Shown: piece by piece, positions 10,820 to 49,050 of the stretch
How the letters are laid out: each line of letters starts with the position of its first letter
How positions within the stretch are numbered: position 1 is the stretch's first letter
DNA from: Sphingobacteriales bacterium
GTDB lineage: Bacteria; Bacteroidota; Bacteroidia; Sphingobacteriales; Sphingobacteriaceae
Direction of reading: 5' to 3'
Length of the DNA stretch: 64,000 nucleotides
NCBI GenBank assembly: GCA_025353765.1
Contig: JANXOD010000020.1
Location: 186,001 to 250,000 of the forward strand
The notes under the pieces: model-generated
What the model saw: only the letters and a program-made list of their open reading frames with translations
Told to the model about the DNA's origin: nothing
The model's database searches: none
Made by a program: the position numbers and the translations under genes

Positions 10820-13204
10820 TCACTCCACAATAATCTTTTGGCTACTGGTTTTACCGTTTGAAGTTACATTTACCACATAAATTCCTTTAGCATTTCCTGA
10901 CAAGTCCAGTTCATAAGATGATTTATCAGATGTAAGATCTACTTTTTGAATTTGGTTTCCTGATAAATCAGATACCTCTATGGTTCCATTATTTAATTTT
11001 GTAGTAATGGTAAATTTACCAGTAGTTGGGTTTGGAGAAATATTAATGCCTTCTGTTGCTAAACTCCCTGCTTCATTTGCCTGGGTAACTGTTGTAAGAC
11101 TTGTTGTTTTAACAGTTCCGGCTCTCACGGGAGTAATTAGTGATTCCACTAGTTTTTTAAGGTTATCAATTTGTTTTTGCTGATCAGTTATTTGTTTTTG
11201 CTGAGCTTCAATTTGTTTTTGTTGTTCAATTTTTTGACCTTGTTGCTCTTGTACTGCTTTTACCAAAGGAACTACAAATTCAGCATAACGAATTCCATAA
11301 AGTGCATTAGTGTTGGTTGGAACATCCACACCGCTAAAACTAAAGCCGCTCTCTTTCGCTGTCTTTTCTACTTCCTGGGCTATAAAACCACTCTCCCTAT
11401 GTTTGGCTGCATATGCATAACTGGCCTGTTTCATTTTCTGCAATTCGGGATCTTCTGTACCTGGAGTACTCTTGCGGTTTTTATTGTAAAAGTTATCTAT
11501 ACCTGGCACGTCAACTATATAAGTAATGGGTCTCAGTTTGTTGATGAATGTAAGTCCTGGTACATCTTCTTTTAGATCTTTTTTAAAACGTCCGTCACTT
11601 AATTTGGTCCAGTCTACTTCCCCGCCTATAGAAGTAACTGCTGTATTTCCTATCCTCACCTTATCGCTGGCATCTACTATGGCTCCATTTCCAATAACAG
11701 TCGCATTATTTATGATAGTGCTTTCAAGTGAAGTTACATCTGTATTAAAGCCTACAGCGGTATTATTGCTTCCTGTAATATTAGATAAAAGTGATAAATA
11801 ACCACTAGCCGTATTATAATTCCCCGTAGTGTTATAGGCAAGGGCCTGAGTACCATTAGCTGTATTTTGATGTCCTTTAGTGTTAAAAGTAAGTGCCTCA
11901 GAACCATTGGCTGTATTTTGATGTCCGTTAGTGTTATTTCGAAGTGCACCATAACCACTCGCTGCATTATTAATCCCGGAAATATTGGAATAGAGTGCCC
12001 ACATACCGATAGCTGTATTGTTTGTCCCTTTAGTATTAGCCCGAAGTGCCTGATAACCATCTGCAGTATTGAAATTTCCCTTATTCATAAAAAGAGCTTC
12101 ATAGCCATCTGCAGTATTAAAATTCCCTTCACTATTGGAATAAAGTGTAGCAAAACCAGTAGCTGTATTTCCTTCACCAATGGTATTACTGGCAAGGGCA
12201 TCCTTGCCGTTGGCCGTATTTTCTCTACCTGTGGTATTGGAGTAAAGAGCACCTGAGCCAGTAGCTGCATTCTGAGATCCGGTAGTATTATTATAAAGTG
12301 CTTCATGGCCATTAGCTACGTTATTATGCCCTCCGGTGTTATAATAAAGTGCACTATTACCATTGGCTGTGTTATAAGATCCACTACTATTGGAATAAAG
12401 TGCACCAGAACCACTGGCTACGTTTTTATAACCCTCTGTATTATGATAAAGTGCAGTCCAGCCTAGTGCTGTATTGTTGGTTCCTGTAGTATTACTGTAA
12501 AGAGCAGAGGCACCATTTGCAGTATTATAAATTCCATCAATATTATTATAAAGCGCAGTCCAACCATTAGCTGTATTTTCAGATCCCTTGTTATTGAAAT
12601 AAAGCGTTTGATAGCCATTAGCTGTATTCTTATCACCTTGAGTATTAGAATAAAGAGACCCAGACCCATTAGCCGTGTTCTTAACACCTGTGGTATTGTG
12701 AAGAAGTGAGCTATAACCACTGGCTGTATTATCAGTGCCGGTAGTATTGGCATAAAGAGTAGCATAGCCATTCGCTGTATTAAATGATCCGCCTATATTG
12801 GAATTAAGCGCAACAAAGCCGGTGGCTGTATTATTTATTCCTGTGGTGTTGCTCTCCAATGCACTACTACCGTTAGCTACGTTAGCAAATCCCGTAGTAT
12901 TGTTAATAAGTGCATGGAAACCCGTAGCCGTATTATTTGATCCTGTAGTATTATAATAAAGCGCTAAAGAACCATTTGCTGTATTTCTGATTCCTGAACT
13001 ATTATAATACAGTGCATAATAACCAAATGCAGAGTTATCTGTACCACTTGTATTACTCAAAAATGCCCCCGAGCCAAACTTTGTATTAGTTTGAGCCATT
13101 ACAGGAGCAAAAAACAGGAGTAAAACCGTTAGGCCTAGAAGTTTTTTGCACACATCTTTTTTACTGAAAAGAGGGTTTATTGGTTTTGTGTATAAATTTT
13201 TCAT
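10820..13204 (-). CDS. Secreted head-repeat surface protein with peptidase S74 domain and T9SS sorting signal
   Basis: 794 residues. The signal peptide hydrophobic core is LLGLTVLLLFFAPVMAQ (after a charged stretch of about 22 residues). Next come 26 tandem repeats of 17 residues (one of 16) with consensus NTTGxxNTAxGxxALYx, related to the left-handed beta-roll heads of trimeric adhesins. Then comes a peptidase S74 (intramolecular chaperone) domain starting at SDGRFKKDL with GFIAQEVEK further on. A Gln/Lys coiled coil follows (QQKQIEAQQKQITDQQKQ). The last 75 residues are a T9SS type A sorting domain (ISPNPTTGKFTI to QKIIVE). S74 domains help fold trimers and can self-cleave before the Ser-Asp. 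Probably a trimeric surface adhesin or sheath protein. Repeat DNA has a 51-bp period. Confidence 0.9.
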   Translation of the reverse strand: MKNLYTKPINPLFSKKDVCKKLLGLTVLLLFFAPVMAQTNTKFGSGAFLSNTSGTDNSAFGYYALYYNSSGIRNTANGSLALYYNTTGSNNTATGFHALINNTTGFANVANGSSALESNTTGINNTATGFVALNSNIGGSFNTANGYATLYANTTGTDNTASGYSSLLHNTTGVKNTANGSGSLYSNTQGDKNTANGYQTLYFNNKGSENTANGWTALYNNIDGIYNTANGASALYSNTTGTNNTALGWTALYHNTEGYKNVASGSGALYSNSSGSYNTANGNSALYYNTGGHNNVANGHEALYNNTTGSQNAATGSGALYSNTTGRENTANGKDALASNTIGEGNTATGFATLYSNSEGNFNTADGYEALFMNKGNFNTADGYQALRANTKGTNNTAIGMWALYSNISGINNAASGYGALRNNTNGHQNTANGSEALTFNTKGHQNTANGTQALAYNTTGNYNTASGYLSLLSNITGSNNTAVGFNTDVTSLESTIINNATVIGNGAIVDASDKVRIGNTAVTSIGGEVDWTKLSDGRFKKDLKEDVPGLTFINKLRPITYIVDVPGIDNFYNKNRKSTPGTEDPELQKMKQASYAYAAKHRESGFIAQEVEKTAKESGFSFSGVDVPTNTNALYGIRYAEFVVPLVKAVQEQQGQKIEQQKQIEAQQKQITDQQKQIDNLKKLVESLITPVRAGTVKTTSLTTVTQANEAGSLATEGINISPNPTTGKFTITTKLNNGTIEVSDLSGNQIQKVDLTSDKSSYELDLSGNAKGIYVVNVTSNGKTSSQKIIVE
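11700..13060 (-). repeat. 51-bp-period coding tandem repeats (26 copies)
   Basis: Internal repeats of the surface-protein gene, each encoding 17 residues. The copies differ at many synonymous and surface positions, so the array is old rather than freshly expanded. Confidence 0.85.
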
Positions 13205-13265: not shown

Positions 13266-13415
13266 TTATACTTTATTTTTCCCTGAAGTAATGTCTGTAA
13301 CAATATTGTTATATAGAAATAATGCCTGATAACCAGTGGCATTATTATTATTACCAGCAGTATTTAAATAAAGTGCGCCAAAACCACTCGCTGTATTATA
13401 CCAGTAGTGTTGGTA
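13266..13415 (-). pseudogene. Decayed fragment of a second head-repeat gene
   Basis: Read on the minus strand, this stretch encodes YNTASGFGALYL, then NTAGNNNNATGYQALFL, then YNN, i.e. two more 17-residue head repeats in register, ending at a stop at 13266-13268. Just upstream, NTTG appears in a different frame, so a frameshift has broken the first unit. No start codon or signal peptide is found. It sits 62 bp upstream of the intact surface-protein gene, so it is a remnant of a tandem paralogue or of a rearranged 5' end. Confidence 0.75.
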
Positions 13416-13479
13416 TACCGCCGGCCTTCACATATTCGCTGCTATTTTTACTAAATTTGGATGCCACACCGGTAAGGGC

Positions 13480-13584
13480 AGTTCTACTGAAAATGAAATC
13501 AGTTCTACTAAAAGCGAAACTAATTCTGCTATTTACTGAACTAGTTCTACTAAAAGTGAAACCAGTTCTGCTATTTGCTAAATT
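13480..13584 (+). repeat. 21-bp-period tandem array, locus 1
   Basis: Five consecutive units of exactly 21 bp (13480-13500, 13501-13521, 13522-13542, 13543-13563, 13564-13584). Units 2 and 4 are near-identical (AGTTCTACTAAAAGCGAAAC and AGTTCTACTAAAAGTGAAAC) and units 3 and 5 share TTCTGCTATTT. A degenerate unit is visible at about 13435-13458. All frames are either interrupted or lack a credible gene context. Confidence 0.8.
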
Positions 13585-48714: not shown

Positions 48715-49050
48715 GATTGGATAGCTTTTTATAAGCTTCGGCCACATTTCCATTAGCTCGGACTTGCTTTTAACCATCTCGGTACGCCTTTTTGTCAGCT
48801 CTGGATAAGTTTTAACCATCTCGGTGCGCCTATCTGTCAGCTCGGTGTAGCCTTTAATGCTCTCGGTGTAGCTTTTAACCTTCTCGGTATAGCTTTCTGT
48901 TATCTCAGTGTGGCTTTTAGCTATCTCGGTATAGCTTTCTATTATCTCGGTGTTGCTTTCTACTGTCTGGATATAGATTTTAACCATCTTTGGACAGCCA
49001 TTAACTATTTTGATGTAGCTTTTTGTGACACTTGATAAGACTTTTGAAAA
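48715..49050. repeat. 21-bp-period tandem array, locus 2
   Basis: About sixteen units of exactly 21 bp, with consensus CTCGGTRTAGCTTTTAACYAT on the plus strand. Clear unit starts are 48757, 48778, 48799, 48820, 48841, 48862, 48883, 48904, 48925, 48946 and 48967. Units decay at both edges. Two alternating variants are visible in the left half. The minus strand reads as heptads such as YTEKVKS, but the array runs past the only start codon and into the flanks, so a gene is doubtful. Confidence 0.85.

Follow-up and report, generated by a model that had tools for sequence, protein, structure and literature searches.

Within the window (the whole stretch of DNA analysed here, 64,000 nucleotides from a Sphingobacteriales bacterium), an open reading frame at 10820..13204 on the minus strand starts with ATG and encodes a protein of 794 aa. 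The chain runs from a signal peptide through an array of repeats and a stalk to an S74/ICA domain, which includes a coil, and closes with a T9SS sorting domain of type A (Table 1); a first-pass annotation of the sequence had named the repeats, S74, a coiled coil, and the sorting domain.

Table 1 Features of the S74 gene and its upstream flank, in window coordinates.
Feature	Position	Strand	Basis
Signal peptide, residues 1–37	13094..13204	-	Hydrophobicity heuristic, type I; cut expected after VMA, placed by eye
25 strict 17-residue repeats, residues 57–480	11765..13036	-	Pattern count and AlphaFold solenoid (residues 57–310)
Stalk with ASDKVRIGNT motif, residues 490–535	11600..11737	-	Alignments A1 and A2
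Ser536 ... Lys541 catalytic pair, candidate cut Leu535|Ser536	11582..11599	-	Alignment columns; bond by analogy to cases described in PMC4690869 and PMC8326128
S74/ICA domain body, residues 536–639	11288..11599	-	PF13884, profile match to solved ICA domains, Foldseek 7dc3
S74 C-terminal helix / coiled coil, predicted, residues 640–695	11120..11287	-	Helix 151–206 of the model
Flexible linker, predicted, residues 696–721	11042..11119	-	pLDDT < 50 at model residues 208–227
Type A T9SS sorting domain, residues 722–794	10823..11041	-	PF18962, TIGR04183, Foldseek 8glk_D
Second-copy remnant upstream of the gene: a 53-aa frame with roughly two repeat units	13314..13400	-	

The head is a regular array, in which 23 of the 24 spacings between strict repeats are 17 aa and the remaining one is 16 aa, and its identity at a lag of 17 residues reaches 0.488, a value that none of 500 shuffles approached (maximum 0.170). 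Positions 0, 2, 4, 8, and 11 of the unit are invariably N, A, G, L, and N; the search pattern fixed positions 2 (A) and 8 (L), nearly fixed positions 0 and 4, and left position 11 free. One degenerate unit precedes the strict array and one or two follow it, and with these ends included the original figure of 26 repeats is fair. The head is predicted to form a solenoid (AlphaFold monomer of residues 57–310, pLDDT 81), which had no PDB match reaching E 0.001. In outline (repeat head, stalk, and coil) the protein is similar to trimeric autotransporter adhesins such as YadA, whose head motif the repeat recalls. However, the YadA anchor and head are absent from its Pfam matches at E up to 1, and YadA-type (type Vc) proteins end in an anchor barrel, whereas this protein ends in a T9SS domain.

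The S74 assignment holds up: Peptidase_S74 (PF13884, Pfam) matches residues 536–618 with 26.1 bits, above the curated cut-off of 22, and a profile built from six relatives (A1) matches five solved S74-type chains (6f45, 7dc3, 8jov, 3gud, and 6eu4), with the gp37-type fibre 6f45 as the best match (E 2e-14) and the MyRF ICA domain 7dc3 at 5e-10. Neither endoNF (3GW6) nor T5 pb1 is among the 11 sequences listed for this profile at E up to 10. An AlphaFold model of the C-terminal part (monomer; mean pLDDT 84.5, pTM 0.62) shows the S74 body connected by a helix of 56 residues and a disordered linker to an Ig-like domain, and a Foldseek search with it returned 7dc3 at rank 31 (E 0.0099). The predicted helix corresponds to the coiled coil named in the first-pass annotation. 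A coiled coil that forms a module of its own was ruled out, as the helix continues the S74 domain in the model.

Ser536 and Lys541, five residues apart, are both present, and their columns are invariant in all 62 rows of alignment A2; a check for missing S74 catalytic residues, proposed at the outset, thus found the pair in place. The bond itself had been placed one residue off, at Ser536-Asp537, which is ruled out because the solved relatives are described as cutting before the Ser: T5 pb1 at Thr1263-Ser1264 (PMC4690869), and MyRF at P586|S587, where S587A and K592A each abolish the cut (PMC8326128). By analogy with these reports, we infer Leu535|Ser536 as the candidate scissile bond. Uncut Ser-to-Ala forms of T5 pb1 and MyRF are reported to fold well enough for crystals (PMC4690869, PMC8326128), so on these accounts the Ser is dispensable for folding.

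T5 and endoNF are described as using an Arg from the neighbouring chain as well (R1250 in T5, R897 in endoNF), a position that we derived from their residue numbers as −14 from the Ser. In the window protein, position −14 is an Ala and the Arg nearby is at −19, and column counts show that Arg at −14 is unconserved across cellular S74 proteins. The absence of this phage oxyanion Arg favours a reading in which S74 acts as a trimerising chaperone only, with no cut or a very slow one, and head, S74, and anchor remain one chain at the surface. Against this, MyRF is reported to cut without the phage Arg, using a Lys elsewhere (PMC8326128), so that an Arg at −14 appears not to be defining for the wider S74/ICA family; no counterpart of this alternative Lys was found in the window protein.

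At the very C-terminus, PF18962 (Por_Secre_tail) matches residues 722–793 of 794 with 48.9 bits (cut-off 27) and TIGR04183 matches with 44.7 bits (cut-off 23), in line with the T9SS sorting domain first annotated there. The first Foldseek rows are T9SS C-terminal domains and DUF3244; the best is 8glk_D, the NucA CTD bound to T9SS, and the CTDs of mirolase and RgpB are also among the best rows, pointing to an Ig-like CTD fold. VIA-align rows are confined to this domain. A type A domain above cut-offs and the CTD fold, together with a putative signal peptide, place the window protein close to type A cargo of T9SS, for example RgpB, NucA, and RemA; these are single chains that are not known to carry a self-cutting domain ahead of the CTD. 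The same genome encodes sprA (SprA_N 519.8 bits, cut-off 27, E 5e-156) and contains 56 sorting-domain matches. A search of the genome for PorU, which is described as processing T9SS cargo (PMC10202324), returned pieces at 183.9 and 81.1 bits, below the cut-off of 420.

The arrangement is not confined to one gene: two paralogues in the same genome and proteins in other genomes share it. Each of the three S74 genes of this genome encodes a signal peptide, 17-residue repeats, S74, and a sorting domain. The window protein and paralogue L002 are 84% identical in S74 and 80% in the sorting domain. With paralogue L001 the identity is again 84% in S74, but the sorting domains agree at only 21% of positions and the signal peptides at 16%; the S74 module has accordingly been combined with different tails.

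Decayed copies adjoin two of the three genes, namely the window gene and L002. The stretches concerned are 13314-13400 (Table 1) and 13479-13573 of the window, upstream of the window gene, where repeat units remain, and L284:5466-5780, upstream of L002, with an orphan sorting domain (PF18962 39.2 bits). A 21-bp tandem repeat is found upstream of the window remnant and the L284 remnant starts with a similar-looking repeat; elsewhere in the window, positions 48755-48989 hold an array of 21/42-bp tandem repeats. The genome also encodes a fourth protein with 17-residue repeats, in an 812-aa frame that is open at the start of contig C35 (L283:1-4755) and has no S74 match. It lies two genes before a PorP/SprF gene (PF11751, 1.1e-49), a pairing described for type B T9SS cargo (PMC10202324).

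Resemblance to phage proteins extends beyond the S74 domain. As in phage endosialidase, the T5 L-shaped tail fibre, and gp37-type fibres, S74 with the same catalytic pair follows a fibre, trimeric in the phage proteins and predicted to be so here, and a stalk, and in addition to the solved gp37-type match, the repeats and S74 match the PHROG virion and tail families phrog_23837, phrog_4636, and phrog_6002. These matches, together with the decayed copies, could be explained by a domesticated or decaying phage-fibre gene without present function. We consider this very improbable, since three intact paralogues each retain a signal peptide and a sorting domain, none of the 36 viral S74 clusters surveyed below carries a sorting domain, and the five flanking genes scanned (histidine kinase, DUF1003, DUF892, nucleotidyl transferase, and M42 peptidase) are non-phage, which rules out a phage setting. 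Phage fibres differ in that S74 is last in the chain, without signal peptide or sorting domain, and in that T5 and endoNF have the Arg at −14 that the window protein lacks.

To place the window protein among its relatives, S74 proteins were surveyed in cellular and viral genomes. In a sample of 392 genomes from the host phylum, Bacteroidota, 113 match S74 with E values up to 0.001; among the matches listed, 30 automatic loci and 80 further stretches were used. The best 80 of 196 relatives were kept from a scan of named genomes, whose pattern was the GFIAQEVE stretch and not the catalytic motif, with a tblastn confirmation that did include the catalytic motif, and 48 loci were viral. Together these yielded 295 S74 frames, 76 of them with four or more repeat units in a row. 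Clustering all frames at 80% identity gave 232 clusters, of which 196 are cellular and 36 are viral.

Most cellular S74 proteins are untailed: 157 clusters (of the 194 with a complete end, and of 196 in all) have 60 or fewer aa after S74 and no sorting domain, and one has 61–90 aa and likewise no sorting domain. Such untailed Bacteroidota proteins have a signal peptide, the same stalk and S74, and in many cases the same head repeats as the window protein, but differ from it in this short end. Among the 36 cellular clusters with more than 90 aa after S74, 34 match a home-made sorting-domain profile, and a sorting domain behind S74 was assigned to 26 of the 196 cellular clusters at the curated cut-off and to nine weakly. 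The home-made profile is generous, as 26 of the 35 tailed representatives reach 23 bits for TIGR04183, and L058, L061, L066 (frame at 1706), L068, L076, L080, L082, L099, and L179, the last of which is cut by the contig end, fall below. When the full proteins of eight profile-tailed relatives (L046, L069, L146, L037, L058, L080, L099, and L066) were scanned against PF18962, only L046 passed the cut-off. The combination of S74 with a T9SS tail recurs across genomes, and searches of open-licence PubMed Central papers brought up, among the rows listed, no work that treats an S74 protein as cargo of T9SS.

Tails have changed more than once. A single tail origin is rejected by an AU test in which 25 curated tailed rows, with L066 left out, were held together against 35 random untailed rows (p 2.5e-6), as well as in a test that includes the weak tails (24 vs 35 rows, p 2.5e-37). 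The number of tail changes needed is 15 on a 231-row tree, 11 on a thinned tree with weak tails, and nine on a thinned tree with curated tails, on trees with few well-supported branches and with changes that may be losses or gains. The catalytic pair has thus outlasted more than one tail change.

The pair is kept under nearly all tails. Counting one representative per 80% cluster, and the tailed member first in mixed clusters, Ser and Lys are both kept in their alignment columns in 25/26 curated tailed clusters, 9/9 weakly tailed, 159/161 untailed cellular, and 35/36 viral clusters; for 194 of the 196 cellular clusters, the passenger in this comparison is presumed. All 85 clusters from the GFIAQEVE scan keep the pair, and Ser and Lys rank among the best-kept columns in every group. 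The curated tailed exception, L066, is almost headless, its signal peptide standing nearly directly before S74, and in the untailed exception L108 the signal peptide likewise stands directly or nearly directly before S74; a further exception, L263, is cut by a contig end, and the last, L020, is taken up below. The L066 frame (L066:3349-4095, 249 aa) comprises a signal peptide, about 10 residues, S74 without the catalytic pair, and a sorting-type tail.

Headless proteins, in which the signal peptide directly precedes S74 and there is no passenger, are found in the host's own family, in which the S74 profile has matches in 64 of the 151 genomes. The headless set comprises 41 frames of 138–190 aa from 41 genomes of this family (L307, L311, L313, L315, and L317–L353) plus L108; L354 (255 aa, not headless), the short frames of G460 and G509, and profile matches with internal stop codons were left out. 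In these 42 proteins the Ser is kept in 11, the Lys in 25, and both in 11, so that 31 have lost the pair. Compared with the curated tailed clusters, this gives Fisher 6e-9, a value that is too optimistic since the sequences are related. The headless domains, mainly from one family, are changed elsewhere too, for example in the GFIAQ stretch, and their decay may therefore not concern cutting alone. With this caution, proteins that have something to cut, among them T9SS cargo, seem to retain the pair, and those with nothing to cut have often lost it. Headless S74 proteins might act as chaperones on other chains.

This distribution bears on the chaperone-only reading. If the Ser is unneeded for folding, as reported for T5 and MyRF, its retention in tailed proteins needs another reason, and the contrast with the headless set speaks against a domain that never cuts. 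In favour of that reading, a cut would sever the sorting signal, and L020 (L020:1781-2836), whose passenger spans about 250 residues, carries Ala in place of both catalytic residues. S74 can evidently persist without the pair, and L020 argues that the cut is not strictly needed. It is possible that there is no cutting at all, and we regard a purely chaperoning S74 as unlikely. For comparative work, L020 is a natural variant predicted not to cut.

The conflict between export and cleavage raised in the first-pass annotation is real, as S74 sits between the passenger and the sorting signal. The annotation concluded that cleavage must be either ordered or absent; an order with or after export is the part we retain, while absence is disfavoured by the pair kept in tailed clusters. 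A cut ahead of export would leave the head stranded unless the two pieces stayed together. A conserved pair is consistent either with a cut that follows export, which we favour, or with cut pieces that travel together. Because the cut would part the head from its sorting signal and the pair is nonetheless kept in tailed relatives, it would fall during or after passage; this suggests release of the fibre by cutting only once it has been exported.

Our preferred reading, tentatively held and somewhat short of an even chance, is that the protein forms a trimeric fibre at the surface, is exported by T9SS with a self-cutting S74 chaperone in its chain, and is cut during or after passage of the outer membrane. 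The signal peptide would take the chain into the periplasm via Sec, and the type A domain, assigned by profile and predicted fold, would take it on through SprA. By analogy with its family, S74 would trimerise via its C-terminal helix and aid co-folding of the stalk and repeat head. Once the trimer is complete, Ser536 with Lys541 would cut Leu535|Ser536. The simplest reason for the cut to wait until the chain crosses the outer membrane, or has crossed it, would be that the trimer is completed only outside. The head would then be free or held by contacts, and the stub of S74 and coil would enter the T9SS sortase route, to be anchored or shed.

Alternatively, S74 may cut in the periplasm, with the head and the S74-coil-sorting fragment remaining bound and the cut trimer exported folded by T9SS. 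T9SS is described as a 36-strand barrel that moves folded cargo (PMC9251779, PMC10202324), and cargo said to cross folded through SprA would also allow trimer and cut in the periplasm (PMC9251779); the conserved pair fits equally well. However, S74 is reported to leave after the cut in T5 and endoNF (PMC8326128, PMC4690869), and the literature cited here, which does not stem from a targeted search, mentions no trimeric T9SS cargo. We judge a periplasmic cut rather unlikely.

A cut that detaches the head from a C-terminal device has a precedent in MYRF, in which the ICA domain is described as lying between the head and a C-terminal membrane anchor, and the cut as freeing the head (PMC3742443). 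In the window protein as in MYRF/MrfA, the ICA domain separates the N-terminal head from a localisation device at the C-terminus, and the catalytic Lys follows the Ser by five residues; a coiled coil and the profile match noted above are further points in common. The two differ in that MYRF/MrfA carry an ER membrane anchor and a transcription-factor head in place of a T9SS domain and a repeat fibre, and in that cutting is demonstrated for MYRF/MrfA and predicted from sequence for the window protein.

A more specific form of our preferred reading is a release switch at the surface: chains would be exported singly by T9SS, trimerisation outside would complete the S74 site, and self-cutting would free only properly built fibres and leave the stub of S74 and coil on the surface. 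We consider this form somewhat doubtful. If it were true, T9SS export would include a quality check on trimeric cargo, at which evolution arrived repeatedly through changes of the tail that follows S74. In the broader reading, if correct, a phage-type self-cutting chaperone has been joined to the surface-export machine of Bacteroidota. How a secretion signal can lie beyond a built-in cut site is the question that the window protein poses, and a catalytic pair that is kept under changing tails and eroded without a passenger makes this question open to experiment.
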